Position numbers and translations under genes: made by a program | Notes under the pieces: model-generated | The model's input: the letters and a program-made list of their open reading frames with translations, nothing else | Told to the model about the DNA's origin: nothing | Database searches by the model: none | Part shown: positions 14,337 through 32,529 of the stretch, one piece after another | How the letters are laid out: every line of letters begins with the position of its first letter | How positions within the stretch are numbered: the first letter of the stretch is position 1 | NCBI GenBank assembly: GCA_009920665.1 | Contig: RFZL01000026.1 | Span: forward strand, 1 to 32,529 | DNA length: 32,529 nt | Reading direction: 5' to 3' | Source: Alphaproteobacteria bacterium | Lineage (GTDB): Bacteria; Pseudomonadota; Alphaproteobacteria; Puniceispirillales; Puniceispirillaceae

Positions 14337-15203
14337 TCAGGGCCAGCGGACTTCCGGTGGCAGGCTCATCAGAATGGCTTCGATATTGCCGCCGGTCCTG
14401 AGCCCGAACAGCGTGCCACGATCATAGAGAAGATTGAATTCGACATAACGGCCGCGCCGTACCAGCTGGTGATGCCGGTCCGCATCGCTCCAGCCCTGAT
14501 TCATGCGGTCTCGGACGATGCCGGCATAGCCGTGATGAAACGCCTCTCCGACATCGCGGGTGAAGGCGAAATCGGCGTTCCAGTCACCGCTGTCGAGATT
14601 GTCGTAGAAAATTCCGCCAGCGCCGCGCGGCTCCTGCCGGTGCGGAAGATAGAAATATTCGTCGCACCACGCCTTGAACCGCGGATAATATTCCATGTCG
14701 TGAGAATCGCAGGCAGCCCGCATCGCGTCATGGAACGCCGCCCCGGCGGCGGCGTCGGGAAATATCGGCGTCAGGTCACCACCGCCACCGAACCAGGCCT
14801 TGCTGGTCACGATGAAGCGCGTGTTCATATGCGCCGCAGGCACATGCGGGTTTCGCGGATGCGCGACAAGCGATATGCCGGACGCCCAGAACCGGCCATC
14901 CTCGGCGGCGCCCGGGATGTTCTTTCTGAACTCCTCGGAAAATTCGCCATGCACGGTCGAGATATTCACCCCGACCTTTTCAAAGACGCGGCCATGCATG
15001 ACACTCATCTGGCCGCCGCCGCCGCCGTCACGGTCCCAGTTGCGCCGCACAAAACGTCCGCGGTCAAGACCGTCATGGCGGGACGAATCCAGATCCGCCT
15101 CGAGAGCCTCGAAGGTGGCGCAGATGGAGTCGCGTAGCTTGGCGAACCAGGACTCGGCCTGTTGCTGGCGCGACTGGGTTGTGTCTTGTGACTGGCTGCT
15201 CAT
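14337..15203 (-). CDS. hemF: Oxygen-dependent coproporphyrinogen III oxidase
   Basis: A 288-residue cytoplasmic enzyme converting coproporphyrinogen III to protoporphyrinogen IX with O2, late in haem synthesis. Signature stretches: [25 protein letters not shown], the strongly conserved [27 protein letters not shown] and [20 protein letters not shown] near the C-terminus. The frame stays open upstream to 15290, but those codons come from tandemly repeated DNA ([11 protein letters not shown]), so the ATG at 15203 is preferred. It implies an aerobic lifestyle, and its place just upstream of petABC links haem supply to cytochrome demand. Confidence 0.96.
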
Positions 15204-15206
15204 CGA

Positions 15207-15242
15207 TTGCCCTTGCCTGTTTTTGCCCTTGCCTGTTTTTGG
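15207..15242. repeat. 16-bp tandem duplication upstream of hemF
   Basis: The unit TTGCCCTTGCCTGTTT is repeated at a 16-bp step starting at 15207 and 15223. A decayed third copy (GGCCGGGCCCTGTTTTTTT) follows. It lies directly before the hemF ATG, so the hemF translation start region consists of repeated DNA. Confidence 0.9.
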
Positions 15243-15262
15243 CCGGGCCCTGTTTTTTTGCC

Positions 15263-15314
15263 ATGCCGGTGATCCGTGCCGGTGATCCACGCCGGAAATC
15301 TACGCCAGAAATCC
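15263..15314. repeat. Four 13-bp degenerate tandem units between hemF and cca
   Basis: Units start at 15263, 15276, 15289 and 15302: ATGCCGGTGATCC, GTGCCGGTGATCC, ACGCCGGAAATCT and ACGCCAGAAATCC. The first two differ at one base; the later two drift, as expected for an older array. A partial unit continues towards the cca stop. Confidence 0.9.
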
Positions 15315-15323
15315 ACTGCCGGC

Positions 15324-16604
15324 TCAGGCCGCCGGACCAAACCCGAGAAAAGCCAGAAGTTCGGCCCTTGTCGGTGCGAAATTCCGTTCCACCCAGTGCT
15401 GTTCAGCGGCGCGTAACATCTCTCCCAGCGGCGGCCCGCTGTCAACGCCTTGCGACAATAAATCAGCACCGGCCAGCGGAAATGCGGGTGGCTGCCAGGC
15501 GGCAAGCCGGTCAAGGCGCGCCATGTCAATCCTCCACCCGCCGCGTCCGCTTGCCACCACAAGAGTCGATGCCGGCGACATGCCGGCGCGATGCAACCAC
15601 CAGGCGGCCTGCTGCCAGCTGTCCGCCGTCAGTGCGCTGACATCCGCAGCCGGCGCGTCCCGGTCAAGCATCCCCAGCATATGGCTGTGCCGCCGCGACA
15701 GGCGCAGGCGCACCGCAATGCCGGCCGCATCGCCCGCCCGCGTGATCACCGCCAGCCTGACAAGCCATGCCGGATGGTCGGCGTCGGCGGCCATCTCGAC
15801 TGCCCCATCGATTTCGGGGGTCAGCGCTGCGGCATCCAACGCCACGCCAAGCGCGGCGGCGGCAAGGCCGGTTTCCTGCATGAGGGCGAGCGCCTGTCCC
15901 GCCCCCGGGACAGCCAGCATGCGTTCCAGTTCGGCGGCGATCCGCTCGCCTGACAGATTCACGGCAAGCCCGGCCTTGGCGGCGAGTGCCGCCAGCGCGT
16001 CATCATCCGTTCCGGCGCGGCCGAAATGCGGCAGAAACCGGCAATAGCGCAACATCCGCAGCGCATCCTCCTCGACACGCTGCATGGCATCACCGACAAA
16101 GCGCAGGATGCCGGCTTCAAGATCGGCCCGCCCGCCAAGCGGGTCTTCCAGCCTGCCGGCGGCATCGATATAGAGCGCGTTGATGGTGAAATCGCGCCGT
16201 GCGGCATCCGCAGCCCAGTCATCACTGAAGGCGACAACAGCCCGCCGACCGTCCGTTTCCAGATCGACGCGTGTCTGCGTCAGTTCAAGATGCTGGTCAC
16301 CCTCCACCACAGTAACCGTGCCATGGTCGAGACCGGTATCGATCACCTTCAGCCCGTGATCGCGAAGCAAGGCCGCCACCCTGTCAATCGGGGCGGCAAC
16401 GGCCATATCGATGTCGCCGATCTCGCGGCCGACAAGCCAGTCGCGCACCGCCCCGCCGACGATCCTCGTTTCATGGCCAGCCGCCATCGTGATGGCAAAA
16501 ATCCGGGCTACCGGCGGCGGCACTGGAAAGGACTCGTTTGCCCGGCCAGAAACCGCGGCAGAAAACGTGCCAGAAGACTTGCCAGAAGACCCTTCAGTTT
16601 CCAT
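15324..16604 (-). CDS. cca: CCA tRNA nucleotidyltransferase / poly(A) polymerase family
   Basis: A 426-residue class II nucleotidyltransferase that adds or repairs the CCA end of tRNAs. RIVGGAVRDWL (47-57) and GDIDMAV with catalytic D64 and D66 mark the palm; RRDFTINALYID and EDALRMLRYCRFLPHFG follow. The ATG at 16604 overlaps the DUF6111 gene by 11 bases and gives an N-terminus that includes PVARIFAI, needed by the family fold. Residues 5-20 are four copies of a four-residue unit (GSSG, KSSG, TFSA, AVSG) encoded by a 12-bp DNA repeat. A start at 16487 would omit the PVARIF helix. Confidence 0.92.
   Translation of the reverse strand: METEGSSGKSSGTFSAAVSGRANESFPVPPPVARIFAITMAAGHETRIVGGAVRDWLVGREIGDIDMAVAAPIDRVAALLRDHGLKVIDTGLDHGTVTVVEGDQHLELTQTRVDLETDGRRAVVAFSDDWAADAARRDFTINALYIDAAGRLEDPLGGRADLEAGILRFVGDAMQRVEEDALRMLRYCRFLPHFGRAGTDDDALAALAAKAGLAVNLSGERIAAELERMLAVPGAGQALALMQETGLAAAALGVALDAAALTPEIDGAVEMAADADHPAWLVRLAVITRAGDAAGIAVRLRLSRRHSHMLGMLDRDAPAADVSALTADSWQQAAWWLHRAGMSPASTLVVASGRGGWRIDMARLDRLAAWQPPAFPLAGADLLSQGVDSGPPLGEMLRAAEQHWVERNFAPTRAELLAFLGFGPAA
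16545..16592. repeat. Four phased 12-bp units inside the cca N-terminus
   Basis: On the plus strand the units begin at 16545, 16557, 16569 and 16581: GCCAGAAACCGC, GGCAGAAAACGT, GCCAGAAGACTT and GCCAGAAGACCC. The 12-bp step keeps the reading frame, adding Ser-rich tetrapeptides to the start of the CCA enzyme. Confidence 0.93.
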
Positions 16605-19225: not shown

Positions 19226-19662
19226 CCGCAGGCATGGGAAAGCGTCAGATAGTCATAAAGAACAATATGTCAGGCTGCGGGCCCGTTTTTACCCAAAAAT
19301 TTTATCAAAATTTTTACAAAGCAATACATTTTGTTTTTTTAATTTAACATTTTTATAACCATCAGCTGGTAATTTATGTCGATTATCACGGGGGCGACAT
19401 CACGGGGGATAGCAAAACCGCATGGCGATCATTCGGCCTGTCGATCATTCTGTCGATCATTCAGCCTGTCGATTTTTCATCACAAGCAGGCAGCCCCTGA
19501 ACTGTGCGCGCCGATCCTGTGCGCGCCGATATTAAGCGGGTCGGCACTATGCGGGTCGGCGGTTATCCCGGCGTGCAGTCTGATGCACCGGTCTGATGCC
19601 GCTATCCACCCGAAAGCCATCAAACCGGAAGGAGACATCAACCCGGAAGGAGACAGGGCTTA
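19226..19662 (+). promoter_or_regulatory. 437-bp arsR leader: AT-rich promoter zone then serial duplications
   Basis: The first part is strikingly AT-rich (about 19290-19360) within GC-rich DNA. It contains the inverted repeat AAAAATTTT-3-AAAATTTTT (19295-19315). A promoter-like pair follows, TTGTTT at 19331-19336 and TATAAC at 19354-19359 with a 17-bp spacer. From 19385 to 19655 the DNA is almost entirely consecutive short tandem duplications. A 95-codon frame (19376-19660) can be read here, but it only translates the repeats and is not called. Confidence 0.5.
19385..19655. repeat. Run of six different short tandem duplications upstream of arsR
   Basis: In order: ATCACGGGGG at 19385 and 19399; a TCGATCATTC motif at about 19425, 19441 and 19453 with a decayed fourth copy at 19469; CTGTGCGCGCCGAT at 19502 and 19517; GCGGGTCGGC at 19536 and 19551; GTCTGATGC at 19578 and 19591; CCGGAAGGAGACA at 19625 and 19643. 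Periods are about 12-18 bp. The last pair duplicates AAGGAG, and the second copy acts as the arsR Shine-Dalgarno sequence. Confidence 0.92.
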
Positions 19663-19992
19663 ATGGCGCGGCTTCCAGATCTAGAGGGTGAGCAGTCAAA
19701 ACTGACGACCATCCTGCGCGCAATGGGCAACGCAAAACGCATGCGCATTCTGAATGAACTTTCGGATGGGCGTGAACGGTCGGTATCCGAACTTGAGGGG
19801 GTGATGTCATCATTGAGCCAATCCGCCCTCTCACAGCATCTGGCCCGCCTTCGCCGCGCAAACATTGTCAAGACACGACGCGAGTCACAGACCATCTATT
19901 ACTCCATCAATGACGCCGATGTCCTGCGGATCCTCCGCCTTCTCGGGCATCTCTATGATGATGATCCGGTCATGAAACGCACCCGCCACTGA
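19663..19992 (+). CDS. ArsR-family transcriptional repressor (BigR/SqrR-like, no cysteine)
   Basis: A 109-residue winged helix-turn-helix protein. The recognition region is SVSELEGVMSSLSQSALSQHLARLRRA (split around residue 50) and the wing VKTRRESQTIYYSI (69-82). Overall it resembles the BigR/SqrR/YgaV group, which senses sulfide or persulfide through two cysteines, but the protein has no Cys. The expected sites appear to be N31 (RMRILN) and D99 (HLYD). It is upstream of the TSUP and TIGR02186 genes and may control them. The start follows a duplicated AAGGAG. Its stop codon lies inside an exact 16-bp duplication. Confidence 0.88.
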   Translation: MARLPDLEGEQSKLTTILRAMGNAKRMRILNELSDGRERSVSELEGVMSSLSQSALSQHLARLRRANIVKTRRESQTIYYSINDADVLRILRLLGHLYDDDPVMKRTRH

Positions 19993-20010
19993 ATGCACCC
20001 GCCACTGAAT
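19979..20010. repeat. Exact 16-bp tandem duplication over the arsR stop codon
   Basis: GCACCCGCCACTGAAT occurs at 19979-19994 and 19995-20010 without a mismatch. The first copy contains the arsR TGA (19990-19992), so the duplication began at the 3' end of the coding sequence and lengthened the spacer. Confidence 0.96.
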
Positions 20011-20068
20011 GCTCCCACGTACGCTTGGCCTGCCTTTCACCACCCGCCTTCGATGAACCGATCGCCCC

Positions 20069-20228
20069 AGTCCGGTAAAAAAGTCCGGTAGAAAGTTCCG
20101 GTGCGAGACATTCGGCGTCGTATTCACAGGCGACATAACCGCATCCGTCTGCTAGTAACACAAATATCCAATTCACGCTGGCGTCAGCCTTGCCTTTCCA
20201 GGCCATAGATCTTCCCAGGCCATAGATC
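20069..20228. repeat. Two further duplications in the TSUP leader
   Basis: AGTCCGGTA at 20069 and 20082, with a variant (AGTTCCGGTG) at 20094, forms a triplet of about 13-bp period. CCAGGCCATAGATC at 20198-20211 and 20215-20228 is an exact 14-bp repeat with a 17-bp period, ending one base before the TSUP ATG. The remaining 236-bp gap shows no gene. Confidence 0.88.
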
Positions 20229-21143
20229 ATGTATATTTATCTGCCAATCGCCGAAGTTTCGATGCATATCGGGATCATCATCGGACTTGGCGGCGGTGTC
20301 GGCTTTCTGTCCGGTCTGTTCGGGGTCGGTGGCGGATTCCTGATGACACCGCTGCTGATTTTCTTCGGCATTCCGCCGGCGGTGGCGGTTTCCACGGAAG
20401 CCAACCAGATTGTCGCCTCTTCAGTATCCGGTGTGCTGGCGCACATGCGCCGGGGCAATGTCGATTTCAAGATGGGGGCTATCCTGATGGCCGGCGGCAT
20501 GATCGGCTCGACACTCGGTGTCGCGCTGTTCTCGTTCCTGCGCGACATCGGTCAGATCGACCTTGTCATCCAGCTGTCCTATGTGGTGTTTCTCGGCATC
20601 ATCGGCGCGCTGATGCTGACCGAAAGCCTTCGCACCATCATTCGCTCGCGCACGCCCGGGGCGGCCCGTGGCAAGCTGCATCAGCATAACTGGCTTCACG
20701 GTCTGCCGCTGAAAATGCGCTTCCGGCGCTCGAAACTCTATATCAGCGCCCTTCTGCCACTTGCCATCGGGGCTTTTGTCGGCGTCCTCGCCGCGATTAT
20801 GGGCGTTGGCGGCGGTTTCATCATGGTGCCAGCCATGATCTATCTTCTCGGCATGCCGACCTCGGTTGTTGTTGGCACCTCGCTGTTCCAGATCATTTTC
20901 GTGACCGCCAACGTCACATTGCTGCAGTCAATCCAGACACAGACGGTTGATTTCCTGCTGGCCGGTCTGCTGCTGTTCGGCGCAGTAATCGGCGCGCAAT
21001 TCGGCAGCCGCGCCGGCGCCGTGCTTCGCGGTGAACAGCTTCGCGGCCTGCTGGCGCTGCTCGTCCTGGCAGTCTGCGTGAAGATTGGCTACGACCTTGT
21101 GGTCCGGCCTGAGGATCTGCTGTCGGTGGAGCTTATGCGATGA
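20229..21143 (+). CDS. TSUP (TauE/SafE) family membrane transporter
   Basis: A 304-residue inner-membrane protein of the family that moves sulfite, sulfoacetate and other sulfur or organic anions. The two-repeat design is clear: GFLSGLFGVGGGFLMTPLL (24-42) in the first half and LAAIMGVGGGFIMVPAMI in the second. A basic cytoplasmic loop (IIRSRTPGAARGKLHQHN) joins them. The opening MYIYLPIAEVS is the usual N-terminus of this alphaproteobacterial subgroup, so the ATG at 20229 is kept over 20262. Its TGA overlaps the next ATG by four bases. Confidence 0.93.
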   Translation: MYIYLPIAEVSMHIGIIIGLGGGVGFLSGLFGVGGGFLMTPLLIFFGIPPAVAVSTEANQIVASSVSGVLAHMRRGNVDFKMGAILMAGGMIGSTLGVALFSFLRDIGQIDLVIQLSYVVFLGIIGALMLTESLRTIIRSRTPGAARGKLHQHNWLHGLPLKMRFRRSKLYISALLPLAIGAFVGVLAAIMGVGGGFIMVPAMIYLLGMPTSVVVGTSLFQIIFVTANVTLLQSIQTQTVDFLLAGLLLFGAVIGAQFGSRAGAVLRGEQLRGLLALLVLAVCVKIGYDLVVRPEDLLSVELMR

Positions 21144-21961
21144 CGGGCTGGCTGGCAATGCAGCGGACACTGGCGCCCGCCCTGATCGGTCTGGCGATGC
21201 TTGTAGCGGGGCCGGTTATGGCCGCGCCCAAGCAGATCGTGGCGGACCTGTCGAACAGCCGCGTCGACATCACGAGCAGCTATCACGGCACCGAGCTTCT
21301 GCTGTTCGGCGCCTATGAGGGCATGCCCGGCGATGACATCATTCTGGTCGTACAGGGACCGGCGACCGACATCATCCAGCGTCGCAAGGCCAAGCGGGCC
21401 GGCATCTGGGTCAATGTCGAGACAAAGATCTGGCAACAGGCACCAAGTTTCTATCACGTTTTCGCCACCGACGATCTGTCGTCAATTACCGATGAACAGG
21501 GCCTTGGCAACGCCTCAGTCGGCCCGCTGTCGCGGGGGCTGAGTTTCACCAGCGGCACAGATGATTCCGGCAACGGCCATGGTGGCGGCACACCGCTCTC
21601 ATCTGGCGCGGCCATCGCGGGCAATCCAGAACAACAGGATAATTTGCGGCGCAACATGCAAGCAAACGGGCTGTGGCAGGTGCTGCCCTCCTCAATTTTC
21701 ACACAGCAGGATATGCTGTTCCGGGCCAGCCTTTCGTTGCCAAGCAACATCCCGCCCGGTGAGTACAGCGTGAGGGTGCTGCATTTCCGCGACGGCGTTG
21801 CATTGAGCGAACGGGCAACCGATATGAATGTGAGGAAAGCCGGTCTCAGCGCGCTGATCTATCGCTTCGCACATGACTATTCCGCGCTGTACGGTATCTT
21901 TGCGATTATTTTTGCGGTGGCCTCAGGCTGGCTTGCCGCGGCGGCGTTCCGCCGCAAGTAA
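21140..21961 (+). CDS. TIGR02186 family membrane protein
   Basis: A 273-residue alphaproteobacterial protein found beside TSUP transporters; function unknown. A signal peptide (about 1-29, ending PVMAA) leads into a periplasmic domain opening IVADLSNSRVDITSSYHGTE and including ELLLFGAYEG. A single C-terminal membrane anchor (about 248-270) ends FRRK. Residues about 130-165 form a Gly/Ser/Thr-rich stretch (GTDDSGNGHGGGTPLSSG) that looks like a flexible insertion. Translational coupling to the TSUP gene suggests an accessory subunit of the exporter. Confidence 0.88.
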   Translation: MTGWLAMQRTLAPALIGLAMLVAGPVMAAPKQIVADLSNSRVDITSSYHGTELLLFGAYEGMPGDDIILVVQGPATDIIQRRKAKRAGIWVNVETKIWQQAPSFYHVFATDDLSSITDEQGLGNASVGPLSRGLSFTSGTDDSGNGHGGGTPLSSGAAIAGNPEQQDNLRRNMQANGLWQVLPSSIFTQQDMLFRASLSLPSNIPPGEYSVRVLHFRDGVALSERATDMNVRKAGLSALIYRFAHDYSALYGIFAIIFAVASGWLAAAAFRRK

Positions 21962-29477: not shown

Positions 29478-29797
29478 CCACCAGCGTGGCGAAAATCCGC
29501 CCGGGCGCTTTTCAGCATCACCACATCTGCCTGTCCCGTTCCGCGATTGACCCGCTGCACAGGGTCGCGCCACGTTGCGGCCCGGTAAAGTGGCCAGCCC
29601 CACACATCACCGCAGGAACCGACCCATACAGACCTGGAATCAAGGTCATTGGCAGGTTACTGGCACATTTAAGTGAACGGCAGCTGGATTGATGGCGGTG
29701 GCGGCGGACGACAGCAGATCAACAATCCGGAACCCGCGCGCAACTGTGAAACCGGGCCCGGACAAGGAACATCACCTGCCGCACGAGGTGAGCCGGG
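29478..29797. other. 320-bp intergenic region without a supported gene
   Basis: A weak hairpin with A/T flanks (29491-29513, GAAAA and TTTTC enclosing CGC/GCG) may end the upstream gene. Short frames on both strands lack ribosome-binding sites and family features. No tRNA or known riboswitch pattern was recognised. Confidence 0.4.
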
Positions 29798-30104
29798 TCA
29801 CCCCTGATCGACACCGCCGAAGCGTGCCAGTTTCAGCGGCCGCACCGCCCCCATCCAGATGGCGTGGTCACGGTGGTCGCGCAGCTCTGACTCCGTATCC
29901 TCGCCAGTATTCGGATGGGTGAAGATGGTCAGTCCCCCGCGATTCAGCGCCAGGAAGGTCATCACCAAAGATAATTGCGCCGCCAATGGCGTCTTCCGCG
30001 CCGAAATGCGCCTGCATCGCAGTGATCAGCGCCGCCGCCGCCGCATAGCTGTCTTCATCGAAATAGACATGGCTGTGCCAGCTTGCCGGGATCAGGTCAG
30101 TCAT
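29798..30104 (-). pseudogene. Remnant of a DOPA 4,5-dioxygenase-family gene with internal deletion and frameshift
   Basis: The first frame, from the ATG at 30104, reads SWHSHVYFDEDSYAAAAALI and continues to about GAEDA, the N-terminal block of DOPA 4,5-dioxygenase-like proteins. It then runs into unrelated residues and stops at 29868. The family's C-terminal block (FLALNRGGLTIFTHPNTGED, then ELRDHRDHAIWMGAV) is in another frame and ends at 29798. Only about ten codons separate the two blocks. The middle block, normally with a GRxHxxPVGPHP-like sequence of roughly 20-25 residues, is absent. A single base error cannot explain this; an internal deletion not divisible by three can. It follows the aldehyde dehydrogenase gene on the same strand. 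Confidence 0.8.
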
Positions 30105-30162
30105 TGGCCAGCCATTGCTCAGTCATTGTTCAATCATCGTTCGACCGGCATTCAACCATCGA
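30097..30162. repeat. Six phased 11-bp tandem units between ALDH and dioxygenase remnant
   Basis: Units start every 11 bp from 30097: TCAGTCATTGG, CCAGCCATTGC, TCAGTCATTGT, TCAATCATCGT, TCGACCGGCAT and TCAACCATCGA. The array includes the dioxygenase start codon (30102-30104, minus) and the ALDH stop codon (30152-30154). Four units carry an ATG on the minus strand, so the start-codon context has been multiplied. Confidence 0.92.
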
Positions 30163-31666
30163 CGCCCTCTTCCGGCTGGCGGTCCGACAGGTCGACCCAG
30201 ATTGTCTTGATCTCGCAATATTGGTCATGCGCGTGAAGGCCATTGTCACGCCCGCCAAATCCGGACTGCCGGTAGCCACCAAAGGGTGTCGTGATATCCC
30301 CCTCGCCATAGCAATTGACGGTGACGGTGCCAGCGCGGATCGCCCGCGCCGCGCGCAGCGCCCGTCCGGCATTCGCCGTGAAAACCGAGGCGGCCAACCC
30401 GTAATCGCTGTCATTGGCGATGGCGATGGCCTCATCAAGGCTCCTCACCGTGATCACCGACAGGACCGGACCAAAAATCTCCTCGCTGGCCAGCTTGCTG
30501 TCCGGCGCGACGCCGTCAAGGATCGTCGGACTGACGAAATTGCCCTCGACCTCGCCGCCGACAAGTTTCGTCACGCCCTTTCCTGTGGACGCGAGATAGC
30601 CGCTGACCTTGGCGCAATGGTCATCATCGATCAGGCTGCCAAGATGGTTCGCCGGGTCCAGCGGGTCGCCCATCCGCCAGTCCCGAACCCGCGCCAGCAA
30701 TTTCGGCATCAACGCCTCACGCACATCCTCATGAACAATCAGCCGCGAGGTGGCGGAGCAGTTCTCGCCCATGTTCCAGAAGGCGCCATTCACCAGATGT
30801 TCGGCGACAAGGTCCAGATTCTCGGCATCATCCATGACGATGGCGGGGTTCTTGCCGCCGCATTCCAGCACCACCTTCTTCAGGTTGGAATCCGCCGCAT
30901 AGTGAAGGAAACGCCGCCCGGTTTCGGTCGAACCGGTGAAAGACACCATGTCGATACCGGGATGAAGGCCTATCGGCGCGCCGGCATCCGGGCCGCTGCC
31001 GGTGACGATATTCAGCACCCCGGCGGGCAGGCCAGCCTCCATTGCCAGTTCGGCGACACGCAACGCCGTCAGCGAGGTCTGTTCCGCCGGCTTGACGATC
31101 ATCGAACAGCCGGCTGCCAGTGCCGGCCCAATCTTCCAGGCCATCATCAGAAGCGGAAAATTCCATGGCAGCACCGCGCCGACCACGCCAATCGGTTCGC
31201 GAACCACAAGCGCCAGCGCGTCCTCGCCAACCGGCGCCGTCTGGTCATACAGCTTGTCGATCGCCTCGGCATGCCAGGTCAGCGTGGTGATGGTCTCGGG
31301 TAGGTCGATCTCGGCGCAGTCGCGGACAGGTTTGCCAGAATCAAGCGACTCCAGGACAGCCAGCTCATGCCGGTTGCGCCGCAGCAATTTCGCCAGACGG
31401 ACCAGCACCTGTTTGCGCTCGGCCGGATGAAGGCAGCGCCAGCGCCCGTCATCAAACGCCTCACGCGCCTTGCCAACAGCGAAATCAACATCCGTTTCAT
31501 CGCAGGCTGCCACCGACGCCAGAACCTCACCGGTCGCCGGGTTGACGCTGTCGAAGGTGGCACCGCTGTTGGCGCGCCGGAACGAACCGTCGATGAAGGC
31601 CGTCGTCGCCGGGGTCAGACCGGCCGCGATGGCGCGGTACTCATCATGGGTCAGCAGCTCGGACAT
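30152..31666 (-). CDS. Aldehyde dehydrogenase (PuuC-like)
   Basis: A 504-residue NAD(P)-dependent aldehyde dehydrogenase. Catalytic residues are N169 (PWNF), E268 (LECGGKN) and C303 (GENCSATSR); SFTGSTETGRRF (242-253) is the cofactor loop. The C-terminal NCYGEGDITTPFGGYRQSGF and HDQYCEIKTIWVDLS resemble the PuuC-type enzymes that oxidise gamma-glutamyl-gamma-aminobutyraldehyde and similar substrates. The ATG overlaps the stop of the DapA-family gene by one base, so the two work together. If the lyase yields an alpha-ketoglutarate semialdehyde-type product, this enzyme would oxidise it; that is inference. Confidence 0.92.
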   Translation of the reverse strand: MSELLTHDEYRAIAAGLTPATTAFIDGSFRRANSGATFDSVNPATGEVLASVAACDETDVDFAVGKAREAFDDGRWRCLHPAERKQVLVRLAKLLRRNRHELAVLESLDSGKPVRDCAEIDLPETITTLTWHAEAIDKLYDQTAPVGEDALALVVREPIGVVGAVLPWNFPLLMMAWKIGPALAAGCSMIVKPAEQTSLTALRVAELAMEAGLPAGVLNIVTGSGPDAGAPIGLHPGIDMVSFTGSTETGRRFLHYAADSNLKKVVLECGGKNPAIVMDDAENLDLVAEHLVNGAFWNMGENCSATSRLIVHEDVREALMPKLLARVRDWRMGDPLDPANHLGSLIDDDHCAKVSGYLASTGKGVTKLVGGEVEGNFVSPTILDGVAPDSKLASEEIFGPVLSVITVRSLDEAIAIANDSDYGLAASVFTANAGRALRAARAIRAGTVTVNCYGEGDITTPFGGYRQSGFGGRDNGLHAHDQYCEIKTIWVDLSDRQPEEGVDG

Positions 31667-32529
31667 CAGGTGCCTCCTCCGGCGCTGTGCGCCTCGTTCA
31701 TCAGCCCGTCGATGGTGCGGTTCATGACCGTAATCACCTGCGCCAGGCTGCGTTTTTCATCCTTGTTCAGATCACGGAGCGGGGCGCGCGGCGGGCCGGC
31801 AGGCAGGCCGCGGACAGCACAGCCATATTTGATGCATTGCAGGAATTTACCACCCTGTTCCAGGGTCCGCATCAGCGGCAGCATGGCCGACATGATGCGG
31901 CGTCCCAGCGCGAAATCACCATCAACGACGCATGTCTGCCACAGCGCCAGATGCGCCTCGGGCGCAAAGTTGGACCCGGCGCAGACCCAGGACTGCGCGC
32001 CCCAGGCAAAAAATTCCAGCGCCTGGTCATCCATGCCGCAACTCATCTGGATGTGCGGATAGTCGCGGGCCAGCATATGGACCCGGTTGATGTCACCCGA
32101 ACTTTCCTTGATGGCGCAGAAATTCGGGCTGCGCCCAACCCGGTCAAGATATTCCGCGCTCATCTCGGCGGCCATCCGGCCCGGATAGTTATACAGCATG
32201 ATCGGGTTCGCGGCGCGGTCGATGGCCAGCGCATGGAGCGCGTTCTCGCGCGGGGTCGGCTGCGCATAGGGCGGGGTGGTGACCAGCAACGCGTCATACC
32301 CCATATCGCGGATGGCCAGCGCCAGTTCCACCGACTCCTCGGTCCGAACCGCGCCGGTGCCACCGATCAGGGCGACGCGGCCGGCGACGATATCCCGTGC
32401 CCGCCGCAGCGATTCAAGCCGTTCTTCGGTTGAATGGGCGTAATATTCGCCAGTCGTGCCGCCAACCACGATGCCATGAACACCGGTTTCGACCAGATGC
32501 TCGAGGATGGCGGCAAAACCGTCCCAGTC
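31666..32529 (-). CDS. DapA-family (DHDPS/NAL) lyase, 5' end outside window
   Basis: About 287 residues of a class I aldolase-fold protein, missing roughly the first 15-25 residues at the window edge. Signature parts: VVGGTTGEYYAHSTEER, LLVTTPPYAQPT, LYNYPGR with the catalytic Tyr and FCAIKESSGD with the Schiff-base Lys. Several members of this family are not lysine enzymes but sugar-acid or hydroxyproline-pathway lyases. Here the gene is translationally coupled to an aldehyde dehydrogenase (one-base overlap), which favours a catabolic role such as pyrroline-4-hydroxy-2-carboxylate deaminase or 5-keto-4-deoxyglucarate dehydratase over true dapA. The substrate cannot be fixed from sequence. 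Confidence 0.88.
   Translation of the reverse strand, partial: DWDGFAAILEHLVETGVHGIVVGGTTGEYYAHSTEERLESLRRARDIVAGRVALIGGTGAVRTEESVELALAIRDMGYDALLVTTPPYAQPTPRENALHALAIDRAANPIMLYNYPGRMAAEMSAEYLDRVGRSPNFCAIKESSGDINRVHMLARDYPHIQMSCGMDDQALEFFAWGAQSWVCAGSNFAPEAHLALWQTCVVDGDFALGRRIMSAMLPLMRTLEQGGKFLQCIKYGCAVRGLPAGPPRAPLRDLNKDEKRSLAQVITVMNRTIDGLMNEAHSAGGGT

Follow-up and report, generated by a model that had tools for sequence, protein, structure and literature searches.

The closest described counterparts of the junction analysed here are termination-reinitiation overlaps (ATGA, TGATG), which its unexpanded form and the links of its expanded form resemble in their 4- or 8-nt overlaps; the difference is that here the overlap has been multiplied, with several links lying serially between two genes. 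Mycobacterial interspersed repetitive units (MIRUs; Supply 1997, as described in PMC12548453) are reported to insert at start codons, to carry a small frame coupled at -4 and thereby to have little effect on expression. The likeness lies in short DNA repeats located at a start codon, with a frame at -4 to the next gene; however, MIRUs are described as apparently mobile (PMC12548453), whereas the 11-bp unit described below appears to have been made in place from the junction itself. MIRUs are the nearest functional precedent of an expanded junction. TAACTGA heptamers form intergenic direct repeats ahead of the start codons of genes in Beggiatoaceae and in others (PMC4679880), but there one fixed heptamer is used genome-wide, whereas the units considered here differ from junction to junction, each derived from the local start and stop. 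In leader-peptide reinitiation a short upstream frame is likewise proposed to enhance translation of the gene that follows (PMC4833913); here, in contrast, there are several short frames, from tandem duplication of a junction. Among the open-licence papers listed in our literature searches, none dealt with tandem multiplication of a stop/start overlap.

The window under study, a stretch of 32,529 nt from a member of the Puniceispirillaceae, marine bacteria that are probably the SAR116 group (contig RFZL01000026.1), contains six 11-bp units on the minus strand at 30097-30162: TCGATGGTTGA (unit 1, 30162-30152), ATGCCGGTCGA (unit 2, 30151-30141), ACGATGATTGA (unit 3, 30140-30130), ACAATGACTGA (unit 4, 30129-30119), GCAATGGCTGG (unit 5, 30118-30108) and CCAATGACTGA (unit 6, 30107-30097). 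The six units follow one another in phase and without indels, as a preliminary description of this DNA had stated, and their lag-11 identity is 37/55, where base composition alone would give 25.9% (binomial tail 1.6e-10, uncorrected for the scan). Among the 66-bp periodicities of the window (lags 5-25), the array ranks second in strength. TRF at a score of 30 finds only 30097-30137 and 30119-30142, because unit 2 is a poor match to the consensus (5/11). With head-to-tail units above about 10 bp the array is, as DNA, a minisatellite-type array, and its period of 11 and consensus ACGATGACTGA set it apart from the period-7 TAACTGA repeats. A start codon closely followed by TGA had been described as recurring in several units; ATG is indeed found in all six, displaced by 3 bases in unit 2, while exact AATGACTGA occurs in two. 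The array had also been said to run exactly from the stop codon of an aldehyde dehydrogenase (ALDH) gene to the start codon of a dioxygenase gene. Instead, unit 1 holds the last two sense codons of ALDH together with its stop TGA (30154-30152), and unit 6 holds the dioxygenase ATG (30104-30102) and the next five bases. Since the gene ends lie inside units 1 and 6, the array replaces the junction and is not an intergenic insert; the spacer from ALDH stop to dioxygenase start is 47 nt.

All genes concerned are read from the minus strand. ALDH (PF00171, E 1.1e-166) is encoded at 30152..31666, its gene ending in GTC GAT GGT TGA; the dioxygenase begins with ATG ACT GAC. Upstream of ALDH, a gene of the dihydrodipicolinate-synthase family (PF00701, by domain match) occupies 31666..32529 and runs off the window, and its stop overlaps the ALDH start as TGATG (31668-31664). 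On account of this overlap the three genes look like a coupled operon. The dioxygenase is interrupted: its 5' part (29868..30104) has 47 homologous codons, then runs out of frame and stops after 78 codons, and its 3' part (29798..29974), in another frame past an 80-bp loss, comprises about 58 homologous codons and a stop. Its assignment to the DOPA-dioxygenase family (PF08883) comes from an intact protein in a second genome (G002) and from the 3' piece, the 5' piece being recognized by similarity to G002. A search of plasmid sequences returned 959 matching records, none covering more than 80% of the query and 4 at 80-90% identity; the matches listed were to ALDH, at about 70%. A wider contig scan gave at least 80 ALDH loci, one of which (L030) has the dioxygenase within its flank.

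Comparison across 12 genomes of the genus, one per species and including the window's own (G000), revealed shorter forms of the junction. The dioxygenase is present in 12/12, in two pieces in G000, and an orthologous ALDH (at least 86% identity) lies directly upstream of it in 8/12. In the other genomes (G003, G005, G006 and G011; L110-L113) a different gene precedes the dioxygenase, the pair being rearranged within the genus; an ALDH of 66-67% identity is encoded elsewhere in G006 and G011, and none was found in G003 or G005 at 1e-150. In five of the eight genomes with the pair, the stop-to-start spacing is -8 (G001, G004, G007 and G008 with ATGGCTGA, G010 with GTGACTGA); G009 has a spacing of +3, G002 of +36 and the window of +47. 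Measured from the ALDH stop to a conserved TGGCA(C/T)AGCCA, the distance is 16 nt in G001, 27 in G009, 60 in G002 and 71 in the window, that is, growth relative to G001 of 11 bp in G009, 44 bp in G002 (five units) and 55 bp in the window (six units). The junction has therefore expanded in 11-bp steps along this close lineage. The same distance is 10 in G004, G007 and G008 and 22 in G010; these are whole-codon differences, and each of the four genomes departs from G001 by 6 nt in this stretch, not 11. Copy number thus varies between species (1, 2, 5 or 6 units in the eight genomes), as in a VNTR. The proposal that an overlapping start/stop junction was expanded stepwise, for which an alignment with close relatives had been recommended, is supported by the -8 overlap in five of eight genomes and the further states at +11, +44 and +55 bp.

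In alignment, the arrays of G000 and G002 differ by one 11-bp gap and by substitutions. They have units 1 and 2 in common, the odd unit 2 included, which makes it very likely that the array is older than their split; most of its growth would then probably have preceded the split, with one gain or loss since. The two genomes differ by 9% at the nucleotide level in ALDH; dS between them is 0.30-0.37. In G009, the extra unit is diverged and the insert aligns poorly as a duplicate. An ALDH nucleotide tree places G009 nearest to G000 and G002 (support 75/74), but a tree of ALDH plus dioxygenase joins it to G001 (93/86), contradicting the former, and a protein tree left the order of G000, G002, G009 and G001 unresolved. 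The ALDH orthologue of G010 (L120, contig C37) has an in-frame stop at codon 57 and may be broken or misassembled.

We consider it probable (about 0.72) that neutral slippage expanded a coupled overlap in 11-bp steps, that the expansion was tolerated and not selected, and that the dioxygenase was lost later and separately. The ancestral state would have been the 8-nt overlap ATGGCTGA, with the dioxygenase ATG and the ALDH TGA in one octamer and a Shine-Dalgarno-like stretch just 5' of it; as a junction, the array thus appears to descend from an ordinary coupled-type overlap. In the G000 lineage, slipped copying, which we infer as the mechanism, would have duplicated the octamer plus 3 bp head to tail, reaching five units in G002 and six in the window. 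Such slippage may be part of a general tendency of the genus to form short tandem arrays between genes.

A survey of gaps between genes (25-600 nt; array periods 8-25), based on a simple home-made gene caller and on sampled stretches, shows how common such arrays are. Counting the array-rich window, which is part of the sample, G000 has 45 arrays, located in 38 of 257 sampled gaps (46,678 bases), or 96 per 100 kb, against a mean of 2.7 after Markov shuffling. G002 has 9 in 42 gaps (108 per 100 kb; first-order Markov shuffle 0.2) and G001 has 18 in 110 (95 per 100 kb; 0.4), followed by 11 in 108 for G016 of the same family (57 per 100 kb; 0.4) and 2 in 42 for G037 of the same order (25 per 100 kb; 0.7). 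Taken as a whole, the window has an array density (period 8-25) of 49 per 100 kb; other sampled stretches of G000 have 20. Clusters are seen at 15200-15330, 16545-16590 and 19290-20230 of the window, mostly with periods of 11-18. At co-directional junctions, arrays lie over the downstream start in 5/398 cases in G000, 3/191 in G002, 0/127 in G001, 4/136 in G016 and 0/38 in G037; the ALDH-dioxygenase array is not among the five of G000 because the gene caller passed over the broken dioxygenase. It is one of many; what makes it notable is that related genomes preserve its shorter forms.

Growth of the same kind is seen at a second junction. At the start of a FAD oxidoreductase gene (PF01266), 16-bp units like GATGCCGGGTGATTGG, each carrying ATG and a stop, are present in three copies in G000 (L203, contig C14, about 21180-21225), five in G002 (L204, contig C132) and none in G009, and the oxidoreductase is uninterrupted in all three, the only genomes of the 12 with a match at 1e-80. 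Another array, of 14 bp x 4.6, precedes a class-III aminotransferase (G000, contig C1, 113912-113975; 13912-13975 of L174). Most of its units carry ATGA and an AGGA-containing stretch, repeating both the start and a possible ribosome-binding site, and it is absent before the eight other aminotransferase orthologues with a readable start. At 325-357 of the window, a small gene that continues beyond the window edge has its start-codon region (ATGAGCCAGGATAACC) doubled by a perfect 16-bp duplication.

An ATG comes with every copy of the 11-bp unit, and in most cases a TGA as well, so that a series of micro-frames results in which each stop overlaps an ATG further on. On the minus strand of the window, MVECRSNDD* (30130..30159) begins at the original start position and its stop overlaps the unit 3 ATG by 8 nt, while MPVER* (30134..30151) begins right after the ALDH stop and ends on the same ATG as ATGA. 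Either path continues through MIEQ* (30123..30137), which overlaps the unit 4 ATG as ATGA, and then through MTEQWLAND* (30097..30126), overlapping the dioxygenase ATG by 8 nt, or MAGQ* (30101..30115), overlapping it as ATGA. In G002, MPADQ*, MTRQ* and MTGR* follow serially, and the original start opens 15 codons to the same ATGA. In G009, MGDR* leads into the dioxygenase ATG, and a GTG at the MGDR* site begins a frame of 66 codons that extends beyond the dioxygenase start. Counting ATG starts only (GTG and TTG were left out), the upstream ATGs chained to the dioxygenase ATG are 5/5 in the window and 4/4 in G002 (links -10 to +5, or -8 to -1); when links are restricted to -4 to -1, the chain of G002 holds and that of the window fails. 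The corresponding counts are 2/2 and 6/6 at the second junction (links -11 to +5), 2/3 at the 14-bp array and 0/1 at the duplicated start at 325-357. By position, all links in G002 lie at the -4 of the MIRU internal frame, and the window has one such link into the dioxygenase (MAGQ*) besides links of -8. Dispersal, the other MIRU property, is absent, the strict pattern ATGRNTGANNNATGRNTGA occurring at one place in the 12 genomes.

In the two most expanded genomes, stop and start do not lie within a few nucleotides directly (+36 and +47), and a near-overlap is reached only through the micro-frames. Duplex energies were calculated with what we take to be the anti-Shine-Dalgarno sequence. The Shine-Dalgarno-like stretch GGAAGAGGG in the coding end of ALDH (30165..30173, minus strand; -6.3 at ATG 30159) is situated just 5' of the dioxygenase start in unexpanded relatives and 5' of the first ATG of the array in the window. 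At the dioxygenase start itself, the four unexpanded relatives that use ATG have energies of -8.6 to -10.4 and the one that uses GTG has -6.4; G009 has -7.5, the window -2.7 and G002 -0.9. Ribosomes that terminate at the end of ALDH, or that come from the old Shine-Dalgarno site, could probably step through the micro-frames to the displaced dioxygenase start, and the insertion would on that account be tolerated rather than selected. Such a translational effect of the micro-frames, deduced from frame positions, offers a reasonable explanation of how the G002 dioxygenase would stay expressed. In one study, coupling fell by 80-90% for two E. coli gene pairs and vanished for a third at +38 nt (PMC10666635), so that +36 or +47 would be costly without stepping stones. 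However, some studies cited in PMC12548453 find coupling at spacings to +25 or far beyond, and the relay may therefore not be needed. The broader reading, that a start codon can shift tens of bases away from its ribosome-binding site with expression kept and that copy number is a tunable setting, is a tentative suggestion that we regard as unlikely.

A stronger version holds that the ladder is a selected translational device in which copy number sets the number of reinitiation hops and thereby tunes the ALDH:dioxygenase ratio. In its favour, the ATG chain is complete in both species here and at the second junction, copy number differs between the species at both, and the dioxygenase start has lost its Shine-Dalgarno energy while the gene of G002 is intact. 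Nevertheless, the frequency of complete chains is close to that of a mutated-repeat null. Mutated repeats gave the chain in 25-36% of simulations for six units as in the window and 32-45% for five as in G002, against 8-12% and 19-30%, respectively, in random spacers; at a divergence of 0.256 from consensus, with completeness scored for all ATGs, the values were 25% and 32% against 8% and 19%. For the second junction the null gave 54% (three units) and 38% (five units). To a large extent, the chain thus arises mechanically once a unit that holds an ATG and a TGA is repeated. Between G000 and G002, 8/50 array columns have changed (P 0.07 against a synonymous-like rate of about 0.26). Moreover, the ladder of the window runs into a broken gene.

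Under a relay, ATGA ladders should also be enriched at periods equal to 2 mod 3, and periods of 11, 13, 14 and 15 were searched in 61 genomes of the family. Three-ATGA ladders numbered 30 at period 11 (reversed control 6), 90 at period 14 (16) and 62 at period 13 (19), corresponding by hand count to 21, 62 and 51 separate loci for periods 11, 14 and 13. Those of period 15 were far more numerous, but many were in codon phase and confounded by coding sequence. Among the matches listed was a run of fifteen ATGA at 15-bp spacing in another genus of the family (G018, contig C56, 23401-23614). Between genes, ATGA is sevenfold more frequent than AGTA (66.3 vs 9.1 per 10 kb), making the reversed control unfair, and the apparent excess of ladders was dropped for this reason. 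Measured against tetramer frequency, 9 local ladders were found where 5.0 were expected (rank 15 of 256). The local sample gave no clear excess at periods equal to 2 mod 3 (4/276 vs 3/298 and 2/188), and the period counts of ATGA ladders in the 61 genomes followed the general distribution of array periods, with no preference for the perfect-ATGA class. With the period-class test negative, frame-dependent selection of ladders was dropped as a candidate. Neither the simulations nor the genome-wide counts point to selection for a relay; the ladder is unproven as a biological device, and we judge the selected-device explanation distinctly improbable.

The preliminary description had further suggested that expansion and gene decay may be linked. 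That the dioxygenase is broken is confirmed, by an 80-bp internal loss with a change of frame, and no second PF08883 match was found anywhere in the G000 genome. In favour of an expansion that uncoupled the genes and so led to decay of the dioxygenase, the longest array stands ahead of the one dioxygenase that is broken in the 12 genomes; but this is a single case, and an intact 128-aa dioxygenase stands behind the five units of G002, so unit counts do not back a link between array and decay. In addition, alignment with G002 places the 80-bp loss away from the array. The dN/dS of the G000-G002 pair is 0.196, within the range spanned by 21 pairs of intact genes (0.091-0.245), although codons 1-45 alone give 0.65, from few sites, and codons 71-128 give 0.112. 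The decay therefore looks recent, and the break is best seen as a later loss, separate from the array. Loss of coupling through the expansion is itself uncertain, since the expanded arrays chain overlapping micro-frames to the dioxygenase start. Together, these observations render a causal role of the expansion in the decay quite unlikely.

That the array is an artefact of assembly may be suspected, as G000 is a fragmented draft of 214 contigs; however, G002 carries a homologous five-unit array, and the units differ from each other and are thus not copied k-mers, leaving very little probability for this explanation. Such a second-genome witness exists for the array and not for the 80-bp loss in the dioxygenase. 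We can give almost no credence to the units as binding sites or an RNA structural element (iterons, a helically phased operator or an attenuator): their regular period is near a helical turn, as had been remarked at the outset, but 11 is not a favoured period (of the 45 gap arrays, 33 have periods of 12-16 and two a period of 11), five of the eight genomes with the gene pair have no array, the strict two-unit pattern occurs at one place in 12 genomes, no Rfam family matched 29500-31000 at the gathering threshold, and folding resembles that of shuffled sequences (z -0.97 and -1.42; 30 and 20 of 200 fold as well).

The junctions form an ordered series, which starts at a simple 8-nt overlap and passes through two and five to six units, and which illustrates how a coupled junction can lengthen. 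It also suggests why such insertions are tolerated: a copied start/stop overlap would bring with it the signals that a terminating ribosome needs. Were start codons indeed able to move away from their ribosome-binding sites with expression kept, the same architecture at the second junction, with its 16-bp units in three versus five copies, would point to a route taken more than once and not to an isolated accident. The system allows a cheap test of several reinitiation hops in a row.
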